Source: Herbiconiux sp.
Lineage (GTDB): Bacteria > Actinomycetota > Actinomycetes > Actinomycetales > Microbacteriaceae
Assembly (NCBI RefSeq): GCF_023264895.1
Contig: NZ_JAHFUY010000036.1
Location: 1-43,593, forward strand
Direction of reading: 5' to 3'
Length of the DNA: 43,593 bases
The notes beneath the pieces were generated by a model. The model ran no database searches. It was not told the origin of the DNA and saw only the letters and a program-made list of their open reading frames with translations. The translations under genes were made by a program, and so were the position numbers. Below, piece by piece: positions 4,905 to 20,669 of this stretch. Within the stretch, counting starts at the first letter, position 1. Each line of letters starts with the position of its first letter.

Positions 4905-4915
4905 CGACGGCCCTG

Positions 4916-5773: not shown

Positions 5774-5778
5774 GCCGT

Positions 5779-5860
5779 GGGCGTGGGTGGGTGGGCGGAT
5801 GCGCGAGCGGCAGGCGTAGGCGTGGGCGGGTGGGCGGGATGCGTGGGCGGCAGGCGTGGG
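5779..5860 (+). repeat. G-rich imperfect direct repeat with two G-quadruplex motifs
   Basis: Two copies of a roughly 31-base G-rich unit (5790-5820 and 5829-5860) lie between the GT2 stop and the sigma gene. Within them are two canonical four-run G-tract motifs on the plus strand: runs at 5779-5795 with loops of 3, 1 and 1 bases, and at 5824-5838 with one-base loops. Confidence 0.75.
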
Positions 5861-5890
5861 CGGGATTGTCGCCGTTGGCGCCGGAGAAGG

Positions 5891-5928
5891 CAAGCCCCTT
5901 GGGGAGAAGGGCACTCGGTTCGACCGTG
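5891..5928 (+). promoter_or_regulatory. Variant of the shared promoter motif, directly before the sigma gene
   Basis: CAAGCCCCT (5891-5899) is followed after 16 bases by CGGTTCGACCGTG (5916-5928). This resembles the element at 4612-4650 with one extra spacer base. If real, transcription would begin almost at the start codon, which would mean a leaderless mRNA and autoregulation of the sigma factor. It is a weaker match than the other two copies. Confidence 0.35.
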
Positions 5929-5934
5929 TTGACC

Positions 5935-6657
5935 ATGACGGAGTACCCAGATCCGGAGGCGCTCGTGGTCGAGCACCTCTCCCTCGCCGACGCGGTGGCG
6001 CGCCGCTTCTTCCGCCACGACCGCGCCAGGGACGAGGACCTCGTGCAGGTGGCGCGGATCGGCCTGCTGAAGGCCGCCCGCCGGTTCGATCCCGAGAAGG
6101 GCGACACCTTCTCCGCCTTCGCCGTGCCCACCATGGCGGGCGAGATCAAGCGGCACCTGCGCGACCTCGGCTGGTTCGTGCGGCCTCCGCGGTCGGTGCA
6201 GGAGCTCAGGGCCCGGGTGGCCGAGGCGACCTCGCGGCTCACCCAGGAGCTCGGCCGGGCGCCCTCCCTCGCCGAGCTCACTCTCGACCTCGGCGAGTCG
6301 GCGGCCGCCGTGGTGGAGGCGAGGGCCTGCCAGCAGCACCTCTACCCGTCGTCGCTCGACGTGCCCATCGGCGACAGCCACGGTGCCACCCTCGCCGACA
6401 TCATCCCGGATGCCGCCGACGAGGTCGAGCGCGCCGACCTCGTGGTGATGCTCTGGTCGGTGCTGCGCACACTGCCCGCGCGCGAGCGGCGGGTCATCCA
6501 GCTGCGCTTCTTCGAGGACCGCACGCAGCAGGAGATCGCGGTCGAGCTGGGGGTCACCCAGATGCAGGTGTCGCGCATCCTCACGAAGACCCTCGCCCTG
6601 CTCCGGGACCGGATCGTGCACGGCGCCCCGCGCGTGCACGGGGCCGGCGCCGCGTAG
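5935..6657 (+). CDS. RNA polymerase sigma factor, SigB/SigF/SigG type
   Basis: The 240-residue protein has sigma-70 regions in order. Region 2 has DLVQVARIGLLKAARRFDP and FSAFAVPTMAGEIKRHLRD. Region 3 has LTQELGRAPSLAELTLDLG. Region 4 has LPARERRVIQLRFFEDRTQQ with a helix-turn-helix ending QMQVSRIL. The pattern matches the stress/sporulation sigma-B/F/G group, not the ECF group. The ATG at 5935 gives the expected N-terminus; an in-frame GTG at 5926 and TTG at 5929 are alternatives, and none has a well-spaced ribosome site. No anti-sigma or anti-anti-sigma gene is adjacent, although partner-switch control is usual for the family. Confidence 0.93.
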   Translation: MTEYPDPEALVVEHLSLADAVARRFFRHDRARDEDLVQVARIGLLKAARRFDPEKGDTFSAFAVPTMAGEIKRHLRDLGWFVRPPRSVQELRARVAEATSRLTQELGRAPSLAELTLDLGESAAAVVEARACQQHLYPSSLDVPIGDSHGATLADIIPDAADEVERADLVVMLWSVLRTLPARERRVIQLRFFEDRTQQEIAVELGVTQMQVSRILTKTLALLRDRIVHGAPRVHGAGAA

Positions 6658-6680
6658 GCCGGGTCTCAGGCCGGGTCTGG

Positions 6681-7700
6681 TCAGGTCTGTGCGCGGGCGA
6701 GCACCCGCCCCGCGGCCTCCAGTACGTCGGCGACACCCACCGCGAGGAGGGCCGGGTCCGGTGTGGCGGCGAACGCGTCGCCCCGCCGCACCGAGGCATC
6801 CGTGAGCACCTCGTGCGGGCCGGGCGGCGGCCCCCAGTGCTCGGGAGCGGCCGGCCCGAAGAGCACCACGGAGGGCCTGGCGTAGGCGGAGGCGAGGTGG
6901 GCGGCGCCCGTGTCGGCCGAGATCACGAGCGCCGCGTCCTCCACGACCCCCGCGAACTCGGCCAGCCCGAGCTCGCCGGCCAGCACGCTCTCCTCGGGCG
7001 CTCCGGCGAGGCGCGCGACCTCGAGGGCGCGCTCGCGCTCGGCGGCGCTGCCGGTGAAGACCACCCGGTGGCCCTGCCGGCCGAGCTCGCGCGCGACCTC
7101 CGCGAAGCGCTCGACCGGCCAGCGGCGCGAGCCGTAGAAGGCCCCGACGTGCAGCACGGTCGCGCCCACCACGTCGACGCGGTGCGGTGACGACAGGAGG
7201 CGCACCTCATCCGGATCGGCCTCGACACCGTAAGCGCGCACGAGGCGCACCCAGCGGGCCCGCTCGCCGATGTCGTCGCGCCAGACCGGGCAGCGGCCGT
7301 CGTCCTGAGCGTCGCCGGGGCGCGGCCCGTCGATCTCGTCGACGTGATGCACCATCGCCACCCTCGCCTCGAGGGCGTCGATCAGGCGCCGGCTCTCCGG
7401 TCCGCTGCCGTGCAGGTTCACCGCCACGTCGATGCGGCCGGGCGCCAGGGGCAGCAGCTCGTCGAGCCCCTTCGTGGGCAGGAGGGCATCGACGCCGTCG
7501 ACGAGGTCGACGATCGGTTCGAGCCAGCCGGGCACCGCGAGCACGAGCCGATGCTCGGGATACGACCGCCGGAGTCCGTGCAGCGCGGGCACAGCCACCA
7601 GCAGGTCACCGAGCTTGAGGGTGCGGAGCGCGAGGAGCTCGGGGCGGCCGTCGGCGTGCGCCGTGCCCGTGTCGGTGTCGGAGGTGTCCAGGAGGTGCAT
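6681..7700 (-). CDS. GT9 family glycosyltransferase (heptosyltransferase-like) no. 1
   Basis: This 339-residue protein belongs to the ADP-heptose:LPS heptosyltransferase family. LKLGDLLVAVPALHGLRRSYP (about residues 28-48) is the N-terminal acceptor-domain motif. The C-terminal nucleotide-sugar domain has HVGAFYGSRRWPVERFAEVA and the DTGAAHLASAYARPSVVLFGP signature. The enzyme would be cytosolic and GT-B-fold. It faces left, divergent from GmhB across 165 bases, at the left edge of the heptose cluster. Its presence with GmhA, GmhB and HldE supports use of an ADP-heptose donor, though some GT9 members use other sugars. The first 20 residues before the fold are low-complexity. Confidence 0.88.
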   Translation of the reverse strand: MHLLDTSDTDTGTAHADGRPELLALRTLKLGDLLVAVPALHGLRRSYPEHRLVLAVPGWLEPIVDLVDGVDALLPTKGLDELLPLAPGRIDVAVNLHGSGPESRRLIDALEARVAMVHHVDEIDGPRPGDAQDDGRCPVWRDDIGERARWVRLVRAYGVEADPDEVRLLSSPHRVDVVGATVLHVGAFYGSRRWPVERFAEVARELGRQGHRVVFTGSAAERERALEVARLAGAPEESVLAGELGLAEFAGVVEDAALVISADTGAAHLASAYARPSVVLFGPAAPEHWGPPPGPHEVLTDASVRRGDAFAATPDPALLAVGVADVLEAAGRVLARAQT

Positions 7701-7788
7701 GCGCCCACCTTCGCAGGGGTCGGCCGGTTCGGCGAGCCCCTCGACCAGCGCCGGAGCTGAACCCGCCCGCGTTCGAGCGCCGGCTGGA

Positions 7789-7832
7789 TCCGGAGCAGGA
7801 GGAGCAGCAGAAGGAGCAGGAGGAGAAGGAGT
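7789..7832 (+). repeat. Polypurine GGAGCA/GGAGAA tract
   Basis: An almost pure A/G stretch built from GGAGCA, GAAGGAG and GGAGGA steps lies in the spacer between the first GT9 gene and gmhB. It has several ribosome-site-like AGGAG words, but the gmhB start is more than 30 bases further on. Confidence 0.6.
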
Positions 7833-7834
7833 TT

Positions 7835-7850
7835 ACTTCTGCCGAGAAGT
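7835..7850. promoter_or_regulatory. Perfect inverted repeat upstream of gmhB
   Basis: ACTTCT, GCCG, AGAAGT form a perfect 6-base inverted repeat ending 15 bases before the gmhB start. It could be an operator or a small hairpin in the leader of the heptose operon. No cognate regulator is identified. Confidence 0.4.
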
Positions 7851-7865
7851 GGGAAGTGCTGGGGT

Positions 7866-8420
7866 ATGACCGAAACCGCCCCCGTGCGCGCCGTGCTGTT
7901 CGACCGCGACGGCACCCTCGTCGTCGACGTGCCGTACAACGGCGACCCCGCGCTCGTCGAGCCCATGCCGGGGGCGGTCGAGGCTGTGGGGCTGCTGCGC
8001 GCGGCAGGGCTCGCGCTCGGTGTGGTCTCGAACCAGTCGGGGGTGGGCCGCGGGCTCATCTCCCGGCGTCAGGTCGAGGCCGTCAACGCGCGGGTCGACG
8101 ACCTGCTGGGCCCCTTCGACGCCTGGCACTGGTGCCCGCACACCACGAACGTCGGATGCCGGTGCCGGAAACCGGCCCCGGGTCTCGTGCTCGACGCCGT
8201 CGGCGCGCTCGGCGTGCGGCCGGAGGAGACCGTGCTGATCGGGGACATCGGCGCCGACATGAAGGCCGCAGAGGCGGCGGGGGCGCGGGCGATCCTCGTG
8301 CCGACGGCCGTGACCCGGGCAGAGGAGATCGTGGCCGCTCCGGTGGTGGCCGGCGACCTCGCGGAGGCCACCGCACTCGTGCTGGACTGGGTGGCGAGGC
8401 CCGACGAGGCGCAGCGGTGA
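7866..8420 (+). CDS. gmhB: D-glycero-D-manno-heptose 1,7-bisphosphate 7-phosphatase-like HAD hydrolase
   Basis: The 184-residue product has the HAD-IIIA layout of GmhB. The nucleophile motif is LFDRDGTLVVDVPYN (residues about 11-25), motif II is VVSNQSGVGRG, and motif III is CRKPAPGLVLDA. VLIGDIGADMKAAEAAGA carries the last acidic motif. A zinc-binding loop with Cys and His is visible as WCPHTTNVGCRCRKP. GmhB removes the 7-phosphate from heptose bisphosphate between the two HldE reactions. Histidinol-phosphate phosphatase is the main alternative within this family, but gmhA and hldE in the same operon favour GmhB. The stop overlaps the next start by GTGA. Confidence 0.88.
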   Translation: MTETAPVRAVLFDRDGTLVVDVPYNGDPALVEPMPGAVEAVGLLRAAGLALGVVSNQSGVGRGLISRRQVEAVNARVDDLLGPFDAWHWCPHTTNVGCRCRKPAPGLVLDAVGALGVRPEETVLIGDIGADMKAAEAAGARAILVPTAVTRAEEIVAAPVVAGDLAEATALVLDWVARPDEAQR

Positions 8421-9622
8421 CCCGGCGCGTGCTCGTGGCACGGCTGGACAGCGTGGGTGACGTGCTGCTGTGCGGCCCGGCCGTGCGAGCGGTGGCGAGC
8501 TCTCCCGGCGTCGACGAGGTGTGGCTGCTCTGCAGCTCGATCGGCGCTCCCGCCGGGCGGATGCTGCCCGGGGTCGCCGGGGTGCTCGAGTGGGACTGCC
8601 CGTGGATCACCGCCTCCGCTCCCCCGGTGAGCGCCGCTCACCTCGACCGGCTCGACGAGCTCGTGCGCCGGATCGCGCCCGAGGCCGCCGTCATCCTCAC
8701 CTCGTTCCACCAGTCGCCGCTGCCGCTCGCGCTGCAGCTGCGGCTCGCGGGGGTGCCGCGCATCGCGGGGGCCTCCGTCGACTTCGCGGGCACGCTGCTC
8801 GATGTGCGGCTGAAGCCCGGCGAGGACTTCCCGGAGGACCAGCCCGAGCCCCTGCGGGCCCTCGGCATCGCCCGGGCGGCCGGTTTCACGCTCCCACCGG
8901 AAGACGACGGCGCCCTTCGCGTGACGGGACTGGGCCCGCTGCCGGCGGCACTCGGCCGGTTCGCTGGCGACGTGGACGGTGGGCTCGACGGTGGGCTCGA
9001 CGGTGAGCTCGAGAGCAAGTCCGCTGGTGGGTCCGGCGGCTACGTGGTCGTGCACCCCGGCGCCTCCGTGCCCTCCCGGCGGTGGCCGGAGGGCCACCAC
9101 GCGCGGGTGGTCGAGCTGCTCCGCGACGCGGGTGTCGACGTCGTCGTGACCGGCGGGCCCGACGAGGTGGAGCTCACCCGGCAGGTAACGGGCGACGACG
9201 ACGCTGCCCGCAGGGGCGACGTGGTCGATCTGGGCGGGGACACGCCGCTGCCTGTGCTGGCCGCGGTGCTCGCGGGCGCATCCGTCGTCGTCAGCGGAAA
9301 CACCGGGCCCGCCCACATCGCCGCGGCCGTGGGCACGCCGGTGGTCAGCCTGTTCTCACCCGTCGTGCCCGCCGAGCGGTGGGCACCGTACGGCGTGCCC
9401 CACGTGCTGCTCGGCGATCAGCAGGCCGCCTGCCGGGGGACGCGGGCGACGGAGTGCCCGGTGCCCGGGCATCCGTGCCTCACGTCGGTGACTCCGGAGC
9501 AGGTGGTGGAGGCGTGCTTCGCCCTGGCCCCGGCGCTGCAGGCCCCCGCGCTGCAGGCCCCCGCGCTGGAGGCGGCCGCACCGCAGGAGGCCGCGCTGCA
9601 GAAGGAAGGTGCTGTCCGATGA
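8417..9622 (+). CDS. GT9 family glycosyltransferase (heptosyltransferase-like) no. 2
   Basis: This 401-residue protein starts at a GTG overlapping the gmhB stop. The N-terminal motif is [18 protein letters not shown]. The donor-domain motifs are [21 protein letters not shown] and [22 protein letters not shown] Cys-containing end ([13 protein letters not shown]) is typical of this GT9 subgroup. Two in-frame repeats stand out: a 12-base repeat giving [12 protein letters not shown] (about residue 190), and a 15-base repeat at 9533-9562 giving ALQAP twice near the C-terminus. Its stop overlaps the next ATG. Co-transcription with gmhB and gmhA makes ADP-heptose a likely donor. Confidence 0.88.
9533..9573 (+). 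repeat. 15-base in-frame tandem repeat at the end of the second GT9 gene
   Basis: Two perfect copies of GCGCTGCAGGCCCCC are followed by a degenerate third. They encode ALQAP units in a low-complexity C-terminal tail after the folded enzyme. Confidence 0.8.
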
Positions 9623-10647
9623 GGATCCTGCTCTGGCACGTGCACGGCGGCTGGACCGACGCCTTCGTGCGCGGCCGCCACGACTACCTGCTGCCCCTCA
9701 ACGAGGCGCACGACGCCTGGGGGCTCGGCCGGGCCGGCCGGGACTGGCCCGAGCGCGTGGTGGAGGTCGATGTGGCACGACTCCGCGAGACCGACGTCGA
9801 CGTGGTCGTGCTGCAGCGGCCCGAGGAGATCGACGCCGTCGAGCGGCTGACCGGACGCGCCCCCGGCCGAGACCTGCCCGCCGTGTTCGTGGAGCACAAC
9901 ACGCCCAAGGTCTCGGTGACCGACACTGTGCATCCGCTCGCCGCGAGGAGCGACATCCCGATCGCTCACGTCACCCACTTCAACCGGCTGTTCTGGGATG
10001 CCGGGAGGGCGCCCAGCACGGTGATCGAGCACGGCGTCGCCGATCCGGGCCCGCTCTACACGGGCGAGCTCGAGCGCCTCGGCGTGGTGATCAACGAGCC
10101 GGTGCGCCGCGGGCGCGTGACCGGGACCGACCTCCTCCCGGGGTTCTCGAGGGTCGCTCCGCTCGACGTGTTCGGCATGGGCGCCGAGCACCTGCCCGAG
10201 GCCCTCGGGGTGCGTGCCGACAGGATCGCCCCCGTCGGAGACCTGCCCTCGGCGCGCCTGCACGCCGAGCTCGCGCGCCGGCGGGTCTACCTGCATCCGC
10301 TCCGCTGGACCTCGCTCGGGCTCGCGCTGCTCGAGGCCATGCACCTCGGCATGCCCGTGCTCGCCCTCGACACGACCGAGGCCTCGCGTGCCGTGCCCCC
10401 CGAGGCCGGGCTCGTGTCGAACGACCTCGGGGCGCTCGAGCGGGCCGCGGCACGACTGATCCGCGATCCGGCCGGAGCGGCGGAGCAGGGCGCGGCCGCC
10501 CGACGGCACGCCCTCGAGCACTACGGCCTCGAGAGGTTCCTCGAGGCCTGGGACCGGCTGCTCGGCGACCTCGCGCCCCGACGGCGCTCCGGTCGCCGTC
10601 CCGCAGCGGACTCCCCCACCACCCTGATGGAAAGGACGACACGATGA
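9619..10647 (+). CDS. GT-B glycosyltransferase (family 4/1-like)
   Basis: The 342-residue protein starts at an ATG overlapping the previous stop (ATGA). It begins [16 protein letters not shown]. It has the GT-B C-terminal domain with [38 protein letters not shown], corresponding to the E-x7-E-like donor motif of GT4 enzymes. The N-terminal half has [12 protein letters not shown] and [10 protein letters not shown] segments. There is no membrane helix. The donor and acceptor are not predictable. Its place between a GT9 enzyme and another GT4 in one operon says it extends the same glycan. The C-terminal 25 residues are Arg/Pro-rich. Confidence 0.85.
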
Positions 10648-12032
10648 AGATCTCCATGGTGTCCGAGCACGCCAGTCCGCTCGCCACGCTCGGCGGCGTC
10701 GACGCGGGCGGGCAGAACGTGCACGTCGCCGCCCTCTCGGCGGCCCTCGCGGCCCGCGGCCACGACGTGACCGTCTACACCCGCCGCGACGACGCCTCGC
10801 TCGAGGAGCGGGTGCGGCTCTGCGACGGGGTCGAGGTGGTGAACGTGGAGGCGGGACCCGCGACCGCCATTCCGAAGGACGAGCTGCTGCCCTTCATGGG
10901 CTCCTTCGGCGACCGGCTCGCGGAGTACTGGCAGGGCGACCGGCCGGACATCGTGCACGGCCACTTCTGGATGTCGGGCCTCGCCGCCCTCGACGCGGCG
11001 CGCCGGCCCGGTGCCGCCGAGCTCCCCGTGGTGCAGACCTTCCACGCTCTCGGCACGGTGAAGCGCCGCCACCAGGGCAGCGACGACACGAGCCCGCCCG
11101 AGCGCGAGTCGCTCGAGCCGCGGGTGGGCCGCGGGGTCGACGCCGTGATCGCCACCTGCTCGGACGAGGCGTTCGAACTGAAGACGATGGGCGTGCCCTC
11201 GACGCGGATCTCGGTCGTCCCGTGCGGCGTCGACACCGGGCTCTTCACCCCCGACGGCCCGGCGGAGGAGAAGGGGCGGCCCTTCCGCATCCTGACCGTC
11301 GGCCGGCTCGTGCCGCGGAAGGGTGTGGGACTGACGATCTCCGCGCTCGCCCGGCTGGTCGACTCCGGCCGCGACGACGTCGAGCTCGTGGTGCTCGGCG
11401 GGTCACGGCCGCCCGCGGAGGTGCTGGACGACCCCGACGTGCAGCGACTACTCGCCCACGCCGAGGGCCTCGGGGTGGCCGACCGGGTGAGCTTCCGCGG
11501 CCAGATCCGGCAGGGCGACCTGCCCCAGGCGCTGCGCTCCGCCGACGTGGTGGTGTGCGCTCCCTGGTACGAGCCGTTCGGCATCGTGCCGCTCGAGGCG
11601 ATGGCCACGGGAACCCCCGTGGTCGCCGCCGCGGTGGGCGGGCTGATCGACAGCGTCGTGCACGGCCGCACGGGGCTGCACGTGCCCCCGCGCGACTCGG
11701 ACGCGATCGCCGACGCCGTGCAGACCCTCCTCGACGACCCGGCGCTGCTCGCGTCGCTCGGGGCGGCGGGCATCGCGCGCACGCACTCGCGCTACACGTG
11801 GTCGAAGGTGGCGGCCGAGACCGAGCGGGCCTACCTCCGCACGCTGCGGGCCGCGGGCCGCGCGGATCGTGGAGGCCGGGCGGGCCGGCCGGTCGATCAC
11901 GCCGACCGGGCGGATCGCGCGGATCGCGCCGATCGAGCCGACCGCACGGATCGGGCGGCGAGACTGCCCGAGGGGGTCGCGGGCGGATCGCGCCGATCAG
12001 CCGGGCGCTCGAACGGGCGGGTGAGCTCGTGA
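10644..12032 (+). CDS. Family 4 glycosyltransferase with repeat tail
   Basis: This 462-residue GT4 enzyme overlaps the previous gene by ATGA. Near the N-terminus it has [20 protein letters not shown], close to the sucrose-phosphate-synthase and MshA type. It then has [21 protein letters not shown] and the donor motif [19 protein letters not shown], so it is a retaining GT-B enzyme with both donor motifs intact. MshA itself makes the mycothiol precursor, but the operon context speaks for a glycan role. The C-terminal 45 residues are not part of the fold: DRA is repeated at 11895-11957 and the end is Arg/Gly/Ser-rich. Confidence 0.87.
11895..11957 (+). repeat. 9-base DRA-coding tandem repeat
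   Basis: Units of the type GA[T/C]CG[G/C]GC[G/C] are repeated about six times in frame, encoding an Asp-Arg-Ala array in the tail of the GT4 protein. The charge alternates regularly. Confidence 0.8.
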
Positions 12033-12712
12033 GCATCCGGGAGGCCCTGCGGCCGGCATCGACGACGGGCCCGGACCAGACGGGCCCCTCAGTGGTGGGT
12101 GACACAACGGTGAACGGCACGGCCGACCTGCTCGCGCGCCACCTCGACGACCACGTCGACACGATCGCGGCCCTGCGCGAGCACGTGCCCACCCTCACCC
12201 GCTGGGGCGACACCCTGGCCGAGCGCCTGCTGCACGGGCACCGGCTGATCGCCGCGGGCAACGGCGGCTCCGCGGCCGAGGCCCAGCATCTCACGGCCGA
12301 GATCGTGGGGCGGTTCGACGGCGAGCGCCGGCCGTTCTCGGCCCTGTCGCTGCACGCCGAGACCTCGAGCGTGACCGCCATCGCGAACGACTACGGCTAC
12401 GACGAGGTGTTCGCGCGGCAGCTGCAGGCCCACGCGAGGGCCGGCGACATCGTGGTGCTGTTCTCCACGAGCGGCCGCAGCCGCAACCTCCTGCTCGCCG
12501 CCGAGGCCGCGCGCCGCATCGGCGCCACGACCTGGGCGCTCACCGGGGTGGCTCCGAATCCGCTCTGCGACGAGTGCGACGAGCAGATCGCGCTGACGGG
12601 CCCCTCTGCCGCCGTGCAGGAGGCCCAGCTCGTGGCGCTGCACCTGCTCTGCCGGGTGTTCGACGACCGGGTGAGACGGCACGACGCCGGCTCGGGAAGG
12701 AGCTCCCGATGA
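12029..12712 (+). CDS. gmhA: Sedoheptulose 7-phosphate isomerase-like SIS protein
   Basis: The 227-residue product starts at a GTG overlapping the GT4 stop. After about 30 extra N-terminal residues it has the SIS fold. The [20 protein letters not shown] segment (about residues 79-98) is the hallmark of GmhA. It is followed by [18 protein letters not shown] and [13 protein letters not shown]. The C-terminal [17 protein letters not shown] includes the catalytic-type His. GmhA converts sedoheptulose 7-phosphate to D-glycero-D-manno-heptose 7-phosphate, the entry step to ADP-heptose. DiaA is a related alternative, but GmhB and HldE neighbours fix the call. The stop overlaps the hldE ATG. Confidence 0.9.
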
Positions 12713-14127
12713 GGATCGTGGTGGTGGGCGACGTGCTGCTCGACGTGGATCTGACCGGCAGCGCCGATCGGCTGAGCCCGGATGCTCCGGTGCCCGTGGT
12801 CGCGGTGCAGGATGCCGCGGAGCGCGCGGGCGGCGCCGGCCTCGTGGCGACCCTGCTGGCGCGCGACGGGATCGACGTCTCCCTCGTGACCGTGCTCGGC
12901 GACGACGACCGGGCCGGCCGCATCCGCTCGTGCCTGGAACGCACGGCCGAGGAGCCCGGGTCCGGTGCGATCGAGGTCGTGGCGGGCGACTCGGGCGCCC
13001 CCACCCCCGTCAAGACGCGGGTGCGCGGATCCGGCCAGGCGGTCGTGCGGATCGACGAGGGCTGCGACCCTCCCCCGCCCCCGCGGGTGAGCGCTGCGAT
13101 GCTCGACGCGCTCACGGATGCCGACGCGGTGGTGGTGGCCGACTACGGCCGCGGCGTCGCGGCCGATCCGGTGCTGCGCGAGGCGCTCGAGCGGGTGGGC
13201 CGGCGGGTGCCCGTGGTCTGGGATCCGCATCCGCGGGGCGCGGAGCCCGTGTGCTCCGCCGCGGTCGTGACCCCCAACTCGAGCGAGGCGCTGGCTGCCG
13301 CGGCCAAGAACGGCGGCAGCAGTGGCAGCACCGACACGATCGTGGGCGCGGCCTCCGACGCCGCCGCCGCGCTCGCGGCCCACTGGGGGTGCGGTGCCGT
13401 GCTCGTGACCCTCGGCCTCCGCGGAGCGCTCCTGCACGTTCCGGGCGAGAGCCCCGACGTGCCGCACGTGGTGCCGGCCCAGGCGGTGCACGACATCGAT
13501 CCGTGCGGTGCCGGTGATCGACTCGCCGCGACCCTCGCCGTGGCGCTCGCCTCGGGCGAGGAGCTCCCCGCGGCCGCCCGCACGGCGGTGGCGGCAGCCG
13601 GCAGGTTCCTCGCCGACGGTGGGGTGGGCGGCCTCGCGAACCCCGCCAACACCCGCCCGCTCGGCGGCGATGCGGGCGACGCTCTCGCGGTGGTGCACGC
13701 CGTGCGGGCACGCGGCGGCACGGTCGTGGCCACCGGCGGCTGCTTCGACCTGCTGCACGCGGGTCACGCCCGCACCCTCGCCGCCGCCCGGGCCCTCGGC
13801 GACTGCCTCGTGGTGTGTCTCAACAGCGACGCCTCGGTGCGACGGCTCAAGGGGTCAGAGCGCCCCATCATGTCCCAGCCCGACCGGGTCGACCTGCTGC
13901 AGGCGCTCGAGTGCGTCGACGCGGTGATCGTGTTCGAGGAGGACACCCCCGAGAGCGTGCTGCGCCGGATCGAGCCCCACATCTGCGTGAAGGGCGGCGA
14001 CTACGTGGCCGAGGAGCTGCCCGAGACGGCGGTGCTCGCCGAGTGGGGCGGCCGCACCGTCACCGTGCCGTACCACGCCGGCAGGTCGAGCACTCGGCTC
14101 GCCGGTGCCCTGGCCCGCGTGGGCTGA
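12709..14127 (+). CDS. hldE: Bifunctional HldE-like heptose kinase/adenylyltransferase, copy 1 (diverged kinase domain)
   Basis: The 472-residue protein has an N-terminal PfkB/ribokinase domain (about 1-320) and a C-terminal nucleotidyltransferase domain (about 340-472). The latter has ATGGCFDLLHAGH (HxGH motif), LNSDASVRRLKGSERP and VKGGDY, as in E. coli HldE. The kinase half keeps GAGD, but in an unusual context (DPCGAGD, usually D-T/V-T-G-A-G-D). The first PfkB signature, GGAAN in E. coli HldE, is GGAGL here, so the sugar-contacting Asn is missing. It starts at an ATG overlapping gmhA. Adenylyl transfer is probably intact; the kinase substrate or activity may differ. A second, more canonical copy lies at 17631. 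Confidence 0.88.
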   Translation: MRIVVVGDVLLDVDLTGSADRLSPDAPVPVVAVQDAAERAGGAGLVATLLARDGIDVSLVTVLGDDDRAGRIRSCLERTAEEPGSGAIEVVAGDSGAPTPVKTRVRGSGQAVVRIDEGCDPPPPPRVSAAMLDALTDADAVVVADYGRGVAADPVLREALERVGRRVPVVWDPHPRGAEPVCSAAVVTPNSSEALAAAAKNGGSSGSTDTIVGAASDAAAALAAHWGCGAVLVTLGLRGALLHVPGESPDVPHVVPAQAVHDIDPCGAGDRLAATLAVALASGEELPAAARTAVAAAGRFLADGGVGGLANPANTRPLGGDAGDALAVVHAVRARGGTVVATGGCFDLLHAGHARTLAAARALGDCLVVCLNSDASVRRLKGSERPIMSQPDRVDLLQALECVDAVIVFEEDTPESVLRRIEPHICVKGGDYVAEELPETAVLAEWGGRTVTVPYHAGRSSTRLAGALARVG

Positions 14128-14242
14128 GCGCCCGCCCGCACCTCCCCGCCCGCCCTGCCCCGGCCCGGCCGACGCCAGCCCTACCTACCCGACCCAGCCC
14201 CACCGATCCGAACCCGCACCACCACCGAAAGGAAGCACCCCC

Positions 14243-14935
14243 ATGCCCCGTCCCCTCGGAAACGTCCTCATCACCGGAGGAGCCTCCGGCCTCGGAGCCG
14301 CCGTCGCCGCCGCCGTGCGCGCCGCGGGCGGCCGACCCATCGTGCTCGACCTCGACATCAGCCGCATCTCGCCCGACGACGCCTACACCGCCGACGTCTC
14401 GGACACCCGCGCGACCGAGGAGCTCGTGGCCCGGCTCGCCGAGCAGTACGGCGGCCTGGATGCGGTGGTCACCGCCGCCGGCATCGACCGGCCGGCGCCG
14501 CTCGGCTCCCTGCCGGGCGCCGACTGGGAGCGCATCGTCGCGGTCAACCTCCTCGGCACGGTCGCCGTCGTGCGAGCTGCCCTCCCCGCACTCCTCGAGG
14601 CGCACGGTCGCGTGATCACCATCGCCTCCTCGCTCGCGCTGCGCGCGCTCGGAGACGCCACCGCCTACTGCGCCTCGAAGTTCGGCGTGCTCGGCTTCAG
14701 CCGCTCGCTGGCCGCCGAGACCAAGGGGAGCCTCGGCGTGACGACCGTCATCCCGGCCGGCATGGACACCCGGTTCTTCGACGGGCGCGACGAGCAGTAC
14801 CGGCCCGGATCCGACGCCAGGCTCATCGACGCGGCCGAGGTCGCCGAGGCGATCGTCTTCGCGCTCACCCGCCCCGCCGGAGTCGAGCTGCGCGAGCTCG
14901 TCATCTGCCCCGAAGAGGAACCGTCGTGGCCGTGA
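14243..14935 (+). CDS. Short-chain dehydrogenase/reductase in the heptose cluster
   Basis: This 230-residue classical SDR has an N-terminal LITGGASGLGAA cofactor motif, a short VTAAGID in place of NNAG, IASSLALRALGDATAYCASK with the Ser and the YxxxK pair, and a PAGMDT segment. It starts at an ATG after AAAGGAAG. A 115-base C-rich spacer separates it from hldE copy 1, so it may be read through or have its own promoter. Its last 35 bases overlap the convergent GT9 gene. It is too short to be the HldD epimerase (about 310 residues, extended SDR). A keto-sugar or heptose-modifying reductase is a reasonable guess, no more. Confidence 0.85.
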   Translation: MPRPLGNVLITGGASGLGAAVAAAVRAAGGRPIVLDLDISRISPDDAYTADVSDTRATEELVARLAEQYGGLDAVVTAAGIDRPAPLGSLPGADWERIVAVNLLGTVAVVRAALPALLEAHGRVITIASSLALRALGDATAYCASKFGVLGFSRSLAAETKGSLGVTTVIPAGMDTRFFDGRDEQYRPGSDARLIDAAEVAEAIVFALTRPAGVELRELVICPEEEPSWP

Positions 14936-16121
14936 CGGGCCCGAGCAGCGAGACGATGTCGTCGTAGACCGCGTCGGCCGGAACGTCCTGCACGAACGAC
15001 ACGTCGTGCTCGCAGCGCGGGGCGGTCCAGCCCACCTGGGTGCAGTCGCGGCCGCAGACCGGGCAGTGCGTCGTCCACGACAGCTGCACCCGCTGACCGC
15101 CGCGGGTGAGCGGCCCGCCGTTGATGAGGTTGCCCACCCAGTAGACGCTCGCCGTGGGGGTGCCGACCGCCTGGGCGAGGTGCCGCGGGCCGCTGTCGTT
15201 GCCCACGAACACGTCGGCGTTCGCGAGCACCCCCGCGAGCTCGGGCAGCGAGAGCCGGCCGGCGAGCGACACGACCGGCTCGGCCGACGTGGTTGCGGTG
15301 GCGGCGGCGGTCGAGGCGATCCGGTCGGCCAGGGCGGCATCGTCGCCCTCCCCCACCAGCACGACGCGGAGCCCGTCCCGGGCGGCCCGGCGGGCGACCT
15401 CGGCGAAGCGGCCGGCCGGCCACCGCCGCCGCGGGTCGGTGGCGCCGGGGTGGATGACCATCAGGCCGGCGCCGCCACCACCACCACCGGCGCCGCCCCA
15501 GCCCCCGGTGCTCGCGTCGAAGACGCCCTCGACGAGCGCCCGTGCCCGCTGCCGCTCCGGCATCGTCACCACGACATGCGGCTCGGCCCGCACCGGCACG
15601 GCACCCGCGAGCGCCACCGTCTCGAGCCAGCGCACCACCTCGTGCTGGTAGTAGAGGTAGGGCAGACTCCGCTCCAGCGGCTGCGCATCCGGGGTCACCG
15701 TGCCCACGGTGTGGGCGGCCCCGAGACCGAGCAGGAACGGGTTCGAGAAGCGGCCGCCGCCGTGCAGCTGGCAGGCGAGGTCGAAGTGCTCGGCCGCCAT
15801 CCGCTTGGTGAACAGAGCAGTGCCGATCGCGTCGTCGTCGGCGGTGTCGGGGCCGTGCACGCCGCGCGCGTGCGGGAGCACCTCGACCCGCGCCACGGGC
15901 CCCGGCCGGCCCTCGAGCAGCGCGCGGTGCGCCGGGGTGCCGAGCAGCACGATCTCCGCCTCGGGATACGCCGCCGCCAGGGCGTCGACGGCGGGCAGCG
16001 CGAACAGCAGGTCGCCGAGACCGCCACCCCGCAGCACGGCGATCTTCAGCACGTCGTCGAACCGCATCGTCTGGTCGAACCGCATCGTCTGGCAGAGCGC
16101 CGTCGCATCCACTGTCCTCAT
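14901..16121 (-). CDS. GT9 family glycosyltransferase (heptosyltransferase-like) no. 3
   Basis: The 406-residue protein has LRGGGLGDLLFALPAVDALAA (GT9 N-terminal motif), VIHPGATDPRRRWPAGRFAEV and GNDSGPRHLAQAVGTPTASVY. Four Cys near the end (THCPVCGRDCTQ then PRCEHD) could bind a metal. A Gly-rich loop, GGWGGAGGGGGGAG, splits the two halves. The start is uncertain. ATG at 16121 gives MRTVDATAL. An 18-base direct duplication creates two more in-frame ATGs at 16085 and 16067, and the last gives a family-like N-terminus MRFDDVLKIAVLRGG. It is convergent with the SDR (35-base overlap) and divergent from the aldehyde dehydrogenase. Confidence 0.86.
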   Translation of the reverse strand: MRTVDATALCQTMRFDQTMRFDDVLKIAVLRGGGLGDLLFALPAVDALAAAYPEAEIVLLGTPAHRALLEGRPGPVARVEVLPHARGVHGPDTADDDAIGTALFTKRMAAEHFDLACQLHGGGRFSNPFLLGLGAAHTVGTVTPDAQPLERSLPYLYYQHEVVRWLETVALAGAVPVRAEPHVVVTMPERQRARALVEGVFDASTGGWGGAGGGGGGAGLMVIHPGATDPRRRWPAGRFAEVARRAARDGLRVVLVGEGDDAALADRIASTAAATATTSAEPVVSLAGRLSLPELAGVLANADVFVGNDSGPRHLAQAVGTPTASVYWVGNLINGGPLTRGGQRVQLSWTTHCPVCGRDCTQVGWTAPRCEHDVSFVQDVPADAVYDDIVSLLGPVTATTVPLRGR

Positions 16122-16171
16122 CCTCTCGTCAGCCGGTTCCCTCCCCTTTCCCCATCGGGTCGCGGGCGAAA

Positions 16172-16201
16172 CACCTGCCCGGGAACGGGATGGGCGAGGT
16201 G
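16172..16201. promoter_or_regulatory. Imperfect inverted repeat between the GT9 and aldehyde dehydrogenase genes
   Basis: CACCTGCCC (16172-16180) and GGGCGAGGTG (16192-16201) are inverted copies with one inserted base. They lie in the divergent promoter region, about 33 bases before the aldehyde dehydrogenase start, and may be an operator or hairpin. Confidence 0.35.
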
Positions 16202-16233
16202 TGGGCCGGGCGGCAAGTGGGTACGGGTCGGTC

Positions 16234-17634
16234 ATGAGCCTCCACCCGATCCGTTCCACCGAGCCGACCGCAGCACCGGAGGCCGAGATGGTCATCTCCG
16301 ATCCCCGCACGGGAGAGCCGGTCGGCCGGGTGCGGATCGCCGATCAGGCCGACGTGGCCGCCGCCGTCGAGCGCACGCGCGACGCGTTCCGCTCCTGGTC
16401 GGAGGTCTCCCCCGCCGAGCGCGGCGTGCGCCTCCGCACGGCGGCCTCAGCGCTCTCGGCGCACGCCGACGAGCTCGCCGAGCTCAACGAGAGGGAGACG
16501 GGCAAGCCTCGCGCCGATGCCCTCGGCGGGGTGCTCGCCGGGGTCGCGACCCTCGAGCAGTACGCCGAGCTCGGCCCCCTGCACACCGGCCGCACCCTCC
16601 GCGGAGACCCGTCGGCCATCGACTACACGGTCGCCGAGCCGCGCGGCGTCGTGGCCGTCATCACCCCGTGGAACGATCCCGTGGCGGTGGCCGCCGGGCT
16701 CATCGGGGCGGCCGTGGTGACGGGCAACACCGTCGTGCACAAGCCCAGCGAGCGCTGCCCCCACCTCGGCGAGCTGCTCGGCCGTGTGCTCGGCGGGGCG
16801 CTGCCCCCGGATGTCGTCGTGACGGTCTCGGGCGACGCCGGCACGGGCGCGCAGCTCGTGGCGCAGCCGGGCGTCTCGATGGTCGCGCACGTGGGCTCCA
16901 CCGCGGCGGGCGAGCGGATCGCGAGAGCCGCGGCCCTCACCGGCGCGCACGTCGTCCGCGAGAACGGCGGCAACGACGCGCTCATCGTCGACGCCGACGT
17001 CGACCCGGTCTGGGCGGCCGAGCAGGCGGCCCTCGGCGCCTTCGCCAACAGCGGCCAGATCTGCACCTCCGTGGAGCGCATCCTGGTGCACGCCGCCATC
17101 GCCCAGCCCTTCCTCAGTGCGCTCGTGGCCGAGGCCGAGCAGCGCACCGCCGATCCGCTGTTCGGCCCGCTGGTCGACACGGCGCTCCGCCGCGACGTGC
17201 ACGCCCAGGTGCTCGAGGCGCTCGAGAGCGGGGCGGTCGCGCTGACCGGCGCCGCACTGTCGGAGGGTGCGGGCAGCTTCTACCCCGCCACCGTGCTGAG
17301 CGGCTGCCGGCCGACCATGACGATCATGCGCGAGGAGACCTTCGGGCCGGTCGCACCCGTGCAGGTGGTCGACTCGTTCGACGAGGCGCTCCGGCTCGCG
17401 GCCGACGACCGCTACGGCCTCGCCGCGACCGTGCTCACGCGCTCGCTCGAGCACGCCGCCGACGCCGCCCGGCGGCTGCCGGTGGGCACCGTGAAGGTGA
17501 ACGCCGTGTTCGGCGGCGCCCCGGGCGGCTCGGCCGAACCGCGGAGGGCCAGCGGCAGCGGCTTCGGCTACGGGCCGGGGCTCCTCGACGAGATGACGCT
17601 CACCAAGGTCGTGCACATCGGGGTCGCGCCATGA
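16234..17634 (+). CDS. Aldehyde dehydrogenase in the heptose cluster
   Basis: This 466-residue NAD(P)-dependent ALDH-superfamily enzyme has TPWNDPVAVAAGLIGAAVV (Asn of the oxyanion hole), VVHKPSE (cofactor Lys), HVGSTAAGERIA, the general-base Glu in VVRENGGND (usually ELGGK), the nucleophile Cys in NSGQICTSVERI, and EETFGPVAPV. Catalytic residues are therefore present although the ELGGK motif is changed. The stop overlaps the ATG of the second HldE, so the two are translationally coupled. Coupling to a heptose enzyme suggests oxidation of a sugar aldehyde or a C7 position, or supply of a precursor. This is inference from position. Confidence 0.87.
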   Translation: MSLHPIRSTEPTAAPEAEMVISDPRTGEPVGRVRIADQADVAAAVERTRDAFRSWSEVSPAERGVRLRTAASALSAHADELAELNERETGKPRADALGGVLAGVATLEQYAELGPLHTGRTLRGDPSAIDYTVAEPRGVVAVITPWNDPVAVAAGLIGAAVVTGNTVVHKPSERCPHLGELLGRVLGGALPPDVVVTVSGDAGTGAQLVAQPGVSMVAHVGSTAAGERIARAAALTGAHVVRENGGNDALIVDADVDPVWAAEQAALGAFANSGQICTSVERILVHAAIAQPFLSALVAEAEQRTADPLFGPLVDTALRRDVHAQVLEALESGAVALTGAALSEGAGSFYPATVLSGCRPTMTIMREETFGPVAPVQVVDSFDEALRLAADDRYGLAATVLTRSLEHAADAARRLPVGTVKVNAVFGGAPGGSAEPRRASGSGFGYGPGLLDEMTLTKVVHIGVAP

Positions 17635-19100
17635 CGCCGCAGCTGCGGCAGCTGCCCGACCTCGTGCGGGCCCGCCCGCCGCGGGTGACCGTCGTGGGCG
17701 ATGTCATCCTCGACCGCTGGCTGCGCGGCGGGGTGCAGCGGGTGAGCCGCGAGGCTCCCGTGCCGGTGGTCGAGGTGGGCGAGCCCGAGAGCTGCCCCGG
17801 CGGCGCCGCGAACACCGCCGTCAACCTCGCGGCCATGGGGGCCGAGGTCGAGCTCGTGACGGTGCTCGGCGACGATCCGGAGGGACGCGAGCTGCTGCGA
17901 CTGCTCGCGGAGGCCGGGGTCGGCACCTCCGGCGCGCTGGTGCGGCCGGGTGCCACGACCGCGTCGAAGACCCGCATCGTGGGAGCCGACCAGATCATCG
18001 TGCGGGTCGACCAGCTCTCCCGGCCGGCGCCTGGGCCCGGCGTGCGCTCGCACGTGCTCGCCGCTCTCGAGCGCGCGCACCCCGAGGGCGCCCTCGTGTT
18101 CTGCGACTACGGCGCCGGGCTCTTCGACGACGAGCTGCTCGAGCTCCTCGCCTCGCACCGGCCTCCCGGCGGCCACCGGGTGGTCGACGCGCACGATCTC
18201 CAGCGCTGGCGGGCCTTCCGGCCGGATGTCGTGACCCCCAACGCCCAGGAGACCGAGCGGCTGCTCGGCCGGCCGCTCGGCAGCGGGGCCGAGCGGGTGG
18301 CCGCGGTCGAGGCGGCCTCCGGTGAGATCCTCAGCTCCTCCGGTGCCGGGCTCGCCGTCGTGACCCTCGACCGCGACGGGACCGCCGTGCTCGACGGAGG
18401 GCATCCGGTGCACCGCACGCACGCCCACCCCGCACCCGAGCACCAGGCATCCGGAGCCGGCGACACGTTCGTAGCGGCCCTCGCGATCGCCCTGGCCGCC
18501 GGCGCGACGCCCGCCACGAGCGCGAGCTGGGCGCAGGCAGCGGCCGACGTGGTGGTGGCCCGGCCCGGCACCGCGGTCTGCTCCCTCAACGATCTCGACG
18601 AGGCGCTCGGCGCGCGCGAACCCACCAGGGCGCTCGGCCTGCCCGAGCTCACCGAGGCGCTGGCCGCCGAGCGGGAGAAGGGTCGGCGGATCGTCTTCAC
18701 GAACGGCTGCTTCGACGTCATCCACCGCGGTCACACCACCCACCTCCGCCAGGCCAAGCAGCTCGGCGACGTGCTCGTGGTCGCGCTCAACGACGACGCC
18801 TCGGTGAGCCGCCTCAAAGGTCCGGAACGGCCCGTGAACCCGGTCGGCGACCGGGTGGCGGTGCTCGAGGCGCTCGGCTGCGTCGACCACGTCGTGGTGT
18901 TCGGCGAGGACACCCCGATCGCCCTGCTCACGGCCCTCCGGCCGGACGTCTACGCGAAGGGCGGCGACTACACGCCCGAGATGCTCGCCGAGACCGAGGT
19001 GGTGCGGGGGTACGGGGGCGAGGTGCGGATCCTCGACTACATCGCCTCGCACTCCACCACGGGGCTCGTCGACCGCATCCGGGCGAGGGCGCTGCCCTAG
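17631..19100 (+). CDS. hldE: Bifunctional HldE-like heptose kinase/adenylyltransferase, copy 2 (canonical motifs)
   Basis: The 489-residue protein has an N-terminal PfkB kinase with VVGDVILDRWLRGGVQRVS, CPGGAANTAVNLAAMGA (intact Asn), KTRIVGADQIIVRVD and ASGAGDTFVAALA. The C-terminal adenylyltransferase has FTNGCFDVIHRGH, ALNDDASVSRLKGPERPVNP and KGGDY. Length and order match E. coli HldE (about 477 residues). It would phosphorylate heptose 7-phosphate at C1 and, after GmhB, join it to AMP. It is coupled to the aldehyde dehydrogenase by ATGA. A strong hairpin at 19116-19134 follows the stop. Compared with copy 1 at 12709 it keeps all kinase signatures. Confidence 0.92.
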   Translation: MTPQLRQLPDLVRARPPRVTVVGDVILDRWLRGGVQRVSREAPVPVVEVGEPESCPGGAANTAVNLAAMGAEVELVTVLGDDPEGRELLRLLAEAGVGTSGALVRPGATTASKTRIVGADQIIVRVDQLSRPAPGPGVRSHVLAALERAHPEGALVFCDYGAGLFDDELLELLASHRPPGGHRVVDAHDLQRWRAFRPDVVTPNAQETERLLGRPLGSGAERVAAVEAASGEILSSSGAGLAVVTLDRDGTAVLDGGHPVHRTHAHPAPEHQASGAGDTFVAALAIALAAGATPATSASWAQAAADVVVARPGTAVCSLNDLDEALGAREPTRALGLPELTEALAAEREKGRRIVFTNGCFDVIHRGHTTHLRQAKQLGDVLVVALNDDASVSRLKGPERPVNPVGDRVAVLEALGCVDHVVVFGEDTPIALLTALRPDVYAKGGDYTPEMLAETEVVRGYGGEVRILDYIASHSTTGLVDRIRARALP

Positions 19101-19115
19101 GCCCAGCCGCACGTG

Positions 19116-19134
19116 CCGCCGGACCGTCCGGCGG
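19116..19134 (+). terminator. Hairpin after hldE copy 2
   Basis: CCGCCGGAC, C, GTCCGGCGG is a perfect 9-base inverted repeat 15 bases after the hldE stop, followed by ATTCG and no clear U-run. It is likely a GC-type terminator or an RNA processing/stability hairpin before the small gene at 19157. Confidence 0.55.
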
Positions 19135-19156
19135 ATTCGAGGAAGAAGGAGACACC

Positions 19157-19303
19157 ATGTCGGACGACCGACCGCAGGAGAACCCCCAGAACCACGACAT
19201 CGTGCCCGGTGCGGGCACCGACAAGCCCTCGCAGGCCGAGGGATCCGAGGAGCAGGCGGAGGAGGCCATCTCGGAGGCCGCGCCCACCGGCGGCGAGGAC
19301 TGA
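19157..19303 (+). CDS. Small acidic hypothetical protein, 48 residues
   Basis: A short gene with a strong site (AAGGAG, seven bases before ATG) encodes 48 residues rich in Glu, Asp, Ala, Gln and Pro. It begins MSDDRPQENPQNHDIVPG and ends APTGGED. It has no hydrophobic segment and is probably disordered. I know no family. Third-position G/C and the ribosome site support it as real. Its initiation region matches that of the DUF2795 gene almost base for base, which hints at shared history or regulation. The stop codon sits inside a 7-base hairpin (19302-19323). Confidence 0.6.
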   Translation: MSDDRPQENPQNHDIVPGAGTDKPSQAEGSEEQAEEAISEAAPTGGED

Positions 19304-19323
19304 GCCCGGGCGGCTGCGGGCTC
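19302..19323 (+). terminator. Hairpin overlapping the stop of the small acidic gene
   Basis: GAGCCCG (19302-19308) and CGGGCTC (19317-19323) form a perfect 7-base stem with an 8-base loop, followed by GCGGTCTTCT. It probably terminates transcription before the catalase promoter at 19351. Confidence 0.5.
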
Positions 19324-19350
19324 GCGGTCTTCTACGCCGCCGAGTGCGCG

Positions 19351-19387
19351 CTGTCCAGCCCCTCGCCCTGATCCGGGGCGGTCGTAG
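19351..19387 (+). promoter_or_regulatory. Putative alternative-sigma promoter upstream of Mn catalase
   Basis: CTGTCCAGCCCCT (19351-19363), 13 bases, then GGCGGTCGTAG (19377-19387). It has the same boxes and spacing as the element at 4612-4650 before the DUF2795 gene. It lies about 60 bases before the catalase start, the same distance as in the other copy. Confidence 0.5.
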
Positions 19388-19448
19388 TTTCACTCTCAAC
19401 ACACACATCGGAGGCGTCGACGACGGCGCCCGGAACGGAGGATGCATC

Positions 19449-20330: not shown

Positions 20331-20358
20331 GCGGATCAGGAGAGGGAGGTGGTGCGCG

Positions 20359-20616
20359 GTGCTCAGCGAACAGCTCACGCGACCGGTCGTCGACGTGCGG
20401 ATCGAGCATCCGGCGGCTGACGAGTGGGAGGTGCATCTCGCCGGCGGCGGGGCCTCGGTCGGGTACGTGACCCGGCTGGGCTCCGTCTACGAGAGCATCG
20501 ACGTGCTGCCTCCCTACGAGGTGCGCCTCTCGGGCTCGCTCGAGGGGGCGCTGGAGTCGATCTACGTGACGCTCACGCCCGAGAACGGGCGGCTGCTGGA
20601 GGCGTACGGGCGGTAG
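20359..20616 (+). CDS. Small hypothetical protein downstream of Mn catalase
   Basis: The 85-residue protein starts at GTG with GGGAGG just upstream. It is soluble and mildly acidic and has short beta-prone stretches (EWEVHLAGGG, SIDVLPPYEVRLSGS, SIYVTLTP). I do not recognise a family. The 28-base gap to the catalase gene suggests one transcript and hence peroxide or stress expression. Convergent with the SDR at 20670. Confidence 0.7.
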   Translation: MLSEQLTRPVVDVRIEHPAADEWEVHLAGGGASVGYVTRLGSVYESIDVLPPYEVRLSGSLEGALESIYVTLTPENGRLLEAYGR

Positions 20617-20669
20617 GGGGGCGTCATCGCGGGGGCGGGCGCTCCGGCCGCGGTCTGCGCGAGGTGCGC

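Follow-up and report, generated by a model that had tools for sequence, protein, structure and literature searches.

How does a Gram-positive bacterium come to possess the enzymes of heptose activation and transfer, and to what end would it use them? This question is raised by a stretch of 43,593 nucleotides from Herbiconiux sp. (contig NZ_JAHFUY010000036.1 of assembly GCF_023264895.1), the whole of which was analysed and is here called the window. The host belongs to the Microbacteriaceae; its assembly amounts to 3.95 Mb in 168 contigs and is 92% complete, and the G+C content of the window ranges from 66 to 76% in 2-kb steps. Our preferred reading, to which we give a probability of about 0.65, is that the window carries a heptose-glycan locus of the same kind as the cwg operon of Streptomyces, situated on a genomic island together with a second module, and that it directs the synthesis of an envelope glycan under stress, with a sigma factor of its own driving promoters of the SigB/F type.

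Gene bounds were derived from open reading frames (ORFs), codon-position composition, inspection of start codons and Pfam and NCBIfam matches. Six core genes follow one another on the forward strand: GmhB, a predicted heptose 1,7-bisphosphate 7-phosphatase (7866..8420; NF006506 117.1 bits, below the cut-off of 178; best solved relative 4pnh); the putative heptosyltransferase GT9b (8417..9622; PF01075 84.1 bits; best solved relative 1psw, WaaF); GTx, a divergent glycosyltransferase of the GT4 type with GT-B fold (9619..10647; Pfam Glyco_trans_1_4 38.8 bits); a GT4 glycosyltransferase resembling MshA and sucrose-phosphate synthase (10644..12032; TIGR03449 236.5 bits); GmhA, a predicted sedoheptulose 7-phosphate isomerase (12029..12712; TIGR00441 122.6 bits, below the cut-off of 209.45); and HldE1, a predicted kinase/nucleotidyltransferase of a cwg-type clade (12709..14127; NF008454 287 bits against 521). 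GT9a, another putative heptosyltransferase, lies upstream on the reverse strand (6681..7700; PF01075 84.6 bits), and a short-chain dehydrogenase/reductase (SDR) follows HldE1 on the forward strand (14243..14935; PF00106 122.2 bits). What we call the accessory module consists of the putative heptosyltransferase GT9c (about 14901..16121, reverse strand; PF01075 94.5 bits), an aldehyde dehydrogenase (ALDH; about 16234..17634, forward; PF00171 372.2 bits), the predicted kinase/adenylyltransferase HldE2 of the classical GGAAN type (17631..19100, forward; NF008454 348.9 bits against 521; TIGR02199 191.1 bits, above the cut-off of 181.5) and a GT2 glycosyltransferase (4916..5773, forward; Pfam Glycos_transf_2 47.5 bits).

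The initial annotation had placed two HldE proteins, GmhA, GmhB, three GT9 enzymes and two further glycosyltransferases in this region, joined mostly by 4-base overlaps. Domain matches confirm all of these genes at their positions, and such overlaps are found at six junctions (GmhB/GT9b, GT9b/GTx, GTx/GT4, GT4/GmhA, GmhA/HldE1 and ALDH/HldE2). The gene list was right as it stood, yet it left out the SDR and ALDH genes, and its bounds, 6681 to 19100, are sound but stop short of the upstream sigma factor and GT2 genes, which recur with the cluster. The whole 3.95-Mb assembly contains three GT9 matches, all inside the cluster.

The isomerase, kinase, phosphatase and nucleotidyltransferase of nucleoside diphosphate (NDP)-heptose biosynthesis are all represented in the cluster by domain matches, and their solved sequence relatives are phosphoheptose isomerases, heptose bisphosphate phosphatases, HldA together with a cytidylyltransferase and, for the GT9 proteins, heptosyltransferases. 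For the predicted model of HldE1 (pLDDT 85.1) the first seven Foldseek matches are all structures of Burkholderia HldA. The predicted GTx model (pLDDT 83.1) has a GT-B GT4 fold, with PimB' (3oka) and BshA as top Foldseek matches. Orthologues from 112 loci (61 to 109 for each protein) were aligned to the window proteins, and conservation was counted over ungapped rows; the catalytic and metal-binding roles of the residues are those that we take them to have. The GmhA sites QH...E and Q.......H are kept in 100% of 106 orthologues, the DxD, CxH and CxC of GmhB (CxH...CxC) in 100% of 104, GAGD and H.GH in 100% of 109 HldE1 and 98-100% of 71 HldE2 sequences, and the catalytic Cys and Glu of ALDH in 100% of 66. 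All three GT9 groups (86 orthologues of GT9a, 104 of GT9b and 61 of GT9c) retain the GD, RxWP-type and (D/N)(S/T)G..H motifs, RxWP being looser in GT9b (W 83%, P 75%); we assume that an N-terminal GD, (K/R)xWP and (D/N)(S/T)G..H form the signature of the family. These observations support a complete route from sedoheptulose 7-phosphate to NDP-D,D-heptose, as far as sequence can tell. The claim that every step to ADP-heptose is encoded thus stands for the route, but "ADP-" may be too narrow, given an arginine in HldE1 that is associated with promiscuity towards nucleoside triphosphates (NTPs).

The cluster is not peculiar to this strain. A scan of named genomes with an HldE1 alignment gave 584 relatives, of which the best 80 loci, a set biased to close relatives, were compared by matches anywhere in the locus stretch. 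HldE1 is present in all 80 by design, GmhA in 80, SDR in 79, GmhB, GT9b, GTx and GT4 in 78 each, HldE2 in 64, GT9a in 61, GT9c in 59, ALDH in 54, the sigma gene in 50 and GT2 in 33. A strict order gmhB-GT9-GT-GT4-gmhA-hldE on one strand is kept in 75 of the 80; of the other five, two are on contigs that end short of the core (L052, L100) and three are rearranged (L113, L115, L121). The co-occurrence of gmhA, gmhB, hldE and GT9 that had been suggested as a check is seen in these actinobacterial loci. In 79 loci SDR is the next match after HldE1. Chance clustering was rejected on the grounds of this conserved order and of the confinement of all GT9 genes of the assembly to the cluster. A sample of 396 genomes across the phylum contains, by hand count, 39 besides the host with an HldE1-like match at E <= 1e-137, and in the 20 of these regions that were examined the core is found again in varied or truncated form, some of the truncations falling at contig ends.

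A clue to the nature of the locus is found in Streptomyces. The literature, as far as the available parts of it go, describes cwg of S. coelicolor (SCO6179-6190) as a 12-gene operon, in print since 2002 (Hong 2002, through citing papers), with a cell wall glycan as its predicted product and with induction by vancomycin that depends in part on sigma-E. Annotations make cwgH a phosphoheptose isomerase, cwgI a bifunctional synthase/transferase and cwgE a putative heptosyl transferase (PMC5882110); the operon is upregulated in an argR mutant, and cwgA responds to salt. The published promoter lies 147 bases before the start (PMC6767563). A search for it with at most two mismatches in 392 genomes of a Streptomyces-type genus, as we infer its identity to be, gave six matches, one of them exact. 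In four of the five regions examined, GmhB, GT9b, GTx, GT4, GmhA, HldE1 and GT9a follow this promoter in that order, with GT9b and HldE1 each in two pieces in one case (L243). The fifth (L241, genome G578) has kept the promoter, followed only by a GmhB fragment and GT4, and is a decayed or replaced cwg operon. In L240, which has the exact promoter, 147 bases separate it from the first start codon of the ORF that follows, precisely the published distance; an epimerase gene, a carbamoyltransferase gene and a pair of GT2 genes are also present in this region.

By sequence comparison, then, the core of the window is homologous to the cwg operon, and the locus appears to be of the cwg kind rather than a new kind of system. 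The pathway is not new to actinobacteria, since cwg has been known since 2002 and actinobacterial NDP-heptose synthetases are, by citation, already in print. The two arrangements are not identical. The seven core genes keep the same order in four of five Streptomyces regions, but the epimerase and carbamoyltransferase at the start of cwg (L240) are absent from the window cluster, which in turn adds SDR, ALDH, GT9c and HldE2. GT9a is upstream and divergent in the window, but downstream in Streptomyces.

The two HldE proteins seem to represent distinct lineages. In a tree of 58 rows, rooted at its midpoint for drawing only, 25 rows of the HldE1 type, including two enzymes encoded on streptomycete plasmids, form one side (support 100/100), and the other 33 rows (100/100) comprise HldE2 together with enzymes of the lipopolysaccharide (LPS) type and alphaproteobacterial, planctomycete and deep actinobacterial ones. 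Trees of each protein had been proposed in the initial annotation; that of HldE has been built and separates HldE1 from the LPS side, with septacidin and hygromycin enzymes not among its rows. The sugar-kinase pocket reads GGAGL in HldE1 (fourth residue G in 91%, A in 8%) as against GGAAN in HldE2. In the nucleotidyltransferase half, position 5 of the motif is Arg in 106 of 109 HldE1 sequences, and position 1 is Tyr in 64, Phe in 39, Leu in 2 and another residue in 4; the window protein has YHAGRSST. The motif is recognisable in 63 of 71 HldE2 sequences, with His (40), Arg (18) or another residue (5) at position 5, and reads YIASHSTT, with His, in the window. The E. coli row, FEDGCSTT, served as anchor for the published motif (F/L)xxGxSTT. 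According to the parts of PMC11573728 and PMC11461863 available, Arg at position 5 lets NDP-heptose synthetases use several NTPs, and one of the two adds that it is not strictly necessary for this. On this rule HldE1 should accept several NTPs; its first position is mostly Tyr. No earlier mention of this Arg in HldE1 came to light in the sources consulted. HldE1 shares the Arg with the STTR5 synthetases, whose motif is (F/L)xxGRSTT (Tang 2024, as described in the same papers), but differs from them in having Tyr rather than Phe or Leu at the first position, and HldE2 differs by the His at the fifth.

Some genomes manage with one full-length HldE, either of the HldE1 type (G050, G058) or HldE2 only (G023), which suggests that the roles of the two overlap. 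In G023 (L231-L233), HldE2, GT2 and ALDH stand together in the first stretch and the remaining cluster genes about 12 kb further on, the gap lying between ALDH and GT9c. There is no gmhA-hldE1 pair: SDR follows GT4 after about 100 bases. Elsewhere in the genome there is a gene resembling GmhA, with 38-39% identity. HldE2 is therefore plausibly able to serve the same glycan, because this genome keeps the other genes without the pair. Where at least 7 kb are available downstream (73 loci), HldE2 is found in 62, GT9c in 55, both in 51 and neither in 7. HldE2, GT2 and GT9c are also found together without the core in stretches of Nonomuraea (L217) and of G382 (L188), the latter having the core elsewhere in its genome, and GT2 homologues lie mostly 3' of HldE2 in relatives, being near it in L043, L188 and L217. 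A protein of 303 amino acids without a Pfam match (L089, 15238-16146, forward; family in 14 loci) follows HldE2 in L072 and L089, a position held by GT2 in other loci. No description of such an accessory module with a second, deeply diverged HldE was found in the literature accessible to us.

Upstream of GT9a the window has a gene for a sigma factor of the SigB/SigF/SigG type (ORF 5653..6657, forward; Pfam sigma70 r2-r4; TIGR02980 222.4 bits, cut-off 234.35), the true start of which is probably further in, at about 5770-5830, given the overlap with GT2. Promoters of the SigB/F type presumably have the consensus GTTT...GGG. A promoter-like element of this kind, GTTT-N16-GGGAA, precedes gmhB (7831..7855, forward), and a second one (16148..16172, reverse) is located 26 bases before the chosen GT9c start at 16121. 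Of the 58 divergent GT9a-gmhB regions (those of the window and of 57 loci), 36 have GTTT-N14-17-GGGWA on the strand of gmhB, and none has it on the opposite strand. Within 280 bases around the gmhB start it is found in 48 of 77 loci (0.4 expected from dinucleotide shuffles; one on the reverse strand), with a spacer of 16 in 42 of the 48; columns that the pattern does not impose, namely T before GTTT, AG after it and C after GGGAA, are conserved as well (42 rows). It also precedes GT9c in 11 of 58 loci, where 0.05 would be expected, and ALDH in 2 of 50, where 0.1 would be; the same scan gave no coding-strand copy ahead of GT9b, GTx, GT4, GmhA, HldE1 or SDR. Less fitting are reverse-strand copies in 7 of 64 regions upstream of HldE2 and single ones before GTx, GT4, GmhA and gmhB.

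In 50 of the 77 scored loci the 6 kb upstream of gmhB contain the sigma gene, and its presence goes along with that of the motif: both occur in 46, the sigma gene only in 4, the motif only in 2 and neither in 24, one locus lacking upstream room. By genus majority, with family-only rows treated as genera and a tie taken as no motif, both occur in 9, neither in 9, and either one only in 2 each (p 0.009). The host assembly has three copies of GTTT-N16-GGGAA, two of which are in the cluster. Elsewhere the share at the cluster is one of one (G414), one of four (G009), two of six (G016), one of five (G023), one of 11 (G041) and one of 16 (G059); the single copy in G030, the locus of which has no sigma gene, is away from the cluster. 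Over 14 genomes there are 71 copies, nine at the cluster, against 66 for the reversed control, G019 being an outlier with eight copies against two. A stricter form of the motif misses the host copies and in G009 matches the cluster only. Since this count took only GTTT-N16-GGGAA, a wider regulon through other -10 forms is possible. A sigma factor dedicated to the cluster would be the simplest reading of these data, with regulation presumably running from the sigma factor to the motif-bearing promoters, and no published description of a sigma gene that tracks with a gmhB promoter motif in this way was found in the sources available. A sigma-E-like promoter in clusters of the window type was rejected, because its pattern occurs near chance in the 58 divergent regions (5 against 2.8 expected; other strand 5 against 3.7, pair shuffles).

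The cluster sits in a genomic island. A genome of the same genus (G004) matches the window at 95.5% over 2162-3363 and at 93% over 25045-25577, with 596 other bases in between, and another (G005) lacks even more, jumping from 3360 to 32437. About 21.6 kb, corresponding to an island at 3364..24977 of which the right joint was read by eye, are thus absent from both, the flanks matching at 81-96%. Gain by transfer is likely, and loss in these two relatives is a possible alternative. Only one of 15 other genomes of the genus (G009) has a strong HldE match, and its cluster stretches (L203, L204, L036) show no match to the flanks of the window. No tRNA was found in the window, and no exact words of 11-20 bases are shared between 3101-3900 and 24601-25400, hence no direct repeat at the joints. 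The surroundings are variable elsewhere too, 26981-30208 likewise missing from the G004 stretch. No account of a relative lacking such an island came to light in the literature available.

The island contains other genes. A manganese catalase gene (near 19449..20330, forward) is the downstream neighbour of HldE2, and a relative of it (74%) stands beside the cluster of Microbacterium barkeri (L088) on the opposite strand. A member of the Rv2629 ribosome-hibernation-factor family (3384-4763, reverse; 163 bits, cut-off 320) lies near the sigma gene. A long ORF at 22413-24926 (forward), an uncertain gene call, has a subtilase match limited to the C-terminal portion of that domain.

On the preferred reading, GmhA would isomerise sedoheptulose 7-phosphate, giving D,D-heptose 7-phosphate, from which the kinase halves of HldE1 and HldE2 would form the beta-1,7-bisphosphate and GmhB would take off the 7-phosphate, HldE1 perhaps also yielding CDP- or UDP-heptose. 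Since canonical HldD, the 6-epimerase, was not found in the 92% complete host assembly (best of nine matches 98.1 bits, cut-off 274.6), the sugar would probably remain D,D. GT4 and GTx may build the acceptor, GT9a, GT9b and GT9c would add heptoses, and SDR, ALDH and possibly GT2 might modify or extend the glycan, the gmhB operon and GT9c being transcribed from SigB/F-type promoters by the sigma factor of the locus. The product is most likely an oligosaccharide or polymer of the envelope, at the cell wall or surface, made under stress. A wall polymer or a secreted heptoside had been proposed at the outset; the envelope glycan is the better guess because the core is homologous to the envelope-stress-induced cwg operon, and the secreted heptoside finds little support. 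A precedent for heptose enzymes acting in the surface sugars of an actinobacterium comes from Rhodococcus ruber, in which deletion of gmhD, a different enzyme in a GDP-heptose route, abolishes exopolysaccharide or capsule, according to the consulted portions of two Rhodococcus papers.

Several points weigh against this reading. The accessible literature only predicts that cwg makes a wall glycan and names no product, and a survey from 2008, which covered 395 glycan sequences of actinobacteria, in the part available confines L,D-heptose to Gram-negatives and does not address D,D-heptose. The window has a SigB/F/G-type sigma gene and matching promoter element, but cwg a sigma-E promoter, which is a different sigma type. 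The regulation is not universal, given the 24 of 77 loci with neither sigma gene nor motif, and the genomes behind the genus table are not independent. Among the 23 neighbour families present in at least 8 loci, none was recognisable as a polymerase, flippase, ABC exporter or ligase. Of these 23, families 13, 15 and 16 gave no or weak Pfam matches, the two that were left out of the Pfam scan and lack a window match are GT9c and ALDH with shadow sequence, and family 12 contains a window SDR at 20673-21455. Finally, scores in heptose-specific NCBIfam models stay below the curated cut-offs except for the adenylyltransferase domain of HldE2 (TIGR02199), the GT9 proteins reaching at best 66.8-76.8 bits against the heptosyltransferase models. 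General models (HAD-IIIA, histidinol-phosphatase domain, cytidylyltransferase-like) pass theirs, and the enzymes are therefore divergent relatives of the LPS enzymes.

The same low scores, and the GGAGL that takes the place of GGAAN in the kinase pocket of HldE1, would fit enzymes that have drifted to a non-heptose sugar. This is very unlikely, as GmhA, GmhB, HldE and GT9 travel together across the phylum with intact catalytic and metal sites, and in two clusters of deep lineages (L176, L177) this gene set includes an enzyme from the HldE2 side of the tree. The family names recall LPS core heptosylation, which employs the same enzyme families for all steps as well as GT9 transferases, whereas HldE1 occupies a deep side of its own in the tree. 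A cryptic outer-membrane lineage, or Gram-negative contamination, is nevertheless hardly conceivable: no LpxC match was found in the host assembly (92% complete), canonical HldD is likewise missing, the best 80 named loci come without exception from actinobacteria, and the contig flank at 33863-43500 is 93% identical to G004. On these grounds an LPS core role and contamination were both rejected, and the actinobacterial appearance of the host noted earlier is upheld. An alphaproteobacterial island on plasmid p5 of Gemmobacter fulvus (L211) combines HldE with a HAD phosphatase, an AGE epimerase, rhamnose genes and a large GT9.

That the product is a small heptoside comparable to septacidin or hygromycin B, either secreted or kept inside the cell, deserves more attention but is still unlikely. 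The pathways of these antibiotics in Streptomyces (Tang 2018, as cited in the available part of PMC10221265) share with the window an actinobacterial supply of NDP-heptose from sedoheptulose 7-phosphate. Two enzymes on the HldE1 side of the tree are plasmid-borne: one in a cluster on pFRL5 of Streptomyces sp. F8 (L205), with a P450, a carbamoyltransferase and an aminoglycoside phosphotransferase, which looks like a heptose natural-product cluster, and one on the 927-kb plasmid p1 of S. fungicidicus (L206), beside a major facilitator superfamily transporter. The latter was dropped as a secondary-metabolite cluster, since an epimerase, a carbamoyltransferase, two glycosyltransferases, a sugar isomerase (SIS) and HldE make it a short cwg-like cluster. 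The pFRL5 locus also has a GT9 and a 654-amino-acid gene matching GmhA and then HldE1, a fusion of SIS, kinase and nucleotidyltransferase. The failure to recognise exporter or polymerase genes among the conserved neighbours would suit a heptoside, but no polyketide synthase, nonribosomal peptide synthetase, aminocyclitol or nucleoside scaffold genes were recognised in the window cluster or the recurrent neighbour families scanned, conservation over several families is unlike that of a secondary-metabolite cluster, and Streptomyces cwg is a target of envelope stress.

Nor does a soluble intracellular oligosaccharide or glycosylated metabolite, such as a protectant or a compound of the thiol or inositol type made under stress, seem probable. 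The GT4 protein is closest to sucrose-phosphate synthase (6kih) and MshA-type chains (3c4q/3c48) among solved relatives, and both kinds of enzyme act on phosphorylated soluble acceptors. The unrecognised exporter, the SigB-type promoter and the stress-like island neighbours (Mn catalase, hibernation-factor-like gene) would also agree with a soluble product. Against it, GT4 scores far under the MshA cut-off of 462.5 bits, and its identity as MshA was rejected, another host gene scoring 333; the cluster has three GT9 enzymes, which in known cases build surface sugar chains, and cwg is induced by vancomycin. Further background came from parts of PMC5563000, PMC10948575, PMC5839063, PMC13011467, PMC3902916, PMC12786566, PMC12298843 and PMC2543016.

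Building on the cwg-type envelope glycan, a bolder picture can be put forward, if only tentatively: that of a self-contained, horizontally moving module, with a dedicated sigma factor for a regulon of essentially one locus, in which CDP- or UDP-heptose from HldE1 and ADP-heptose from HldE2 would feed different GT9 enzymes that build one glycan. If CDP- or UDP-heptose is made here, a function would be found for NDP-heptoses of which the part of PMC11573728 available calls the physiological role elusive. That paper also presents ligand activity towards ALPK1 as a general property of NDP-heptoses, with nothing specific to this host in the part at hand. ALPK1 agonists may thus be made by common Gram-positive bacteria, and a glycan island that brings along a sigma factor dedicated to it would be uncommon as a unit of regulation.

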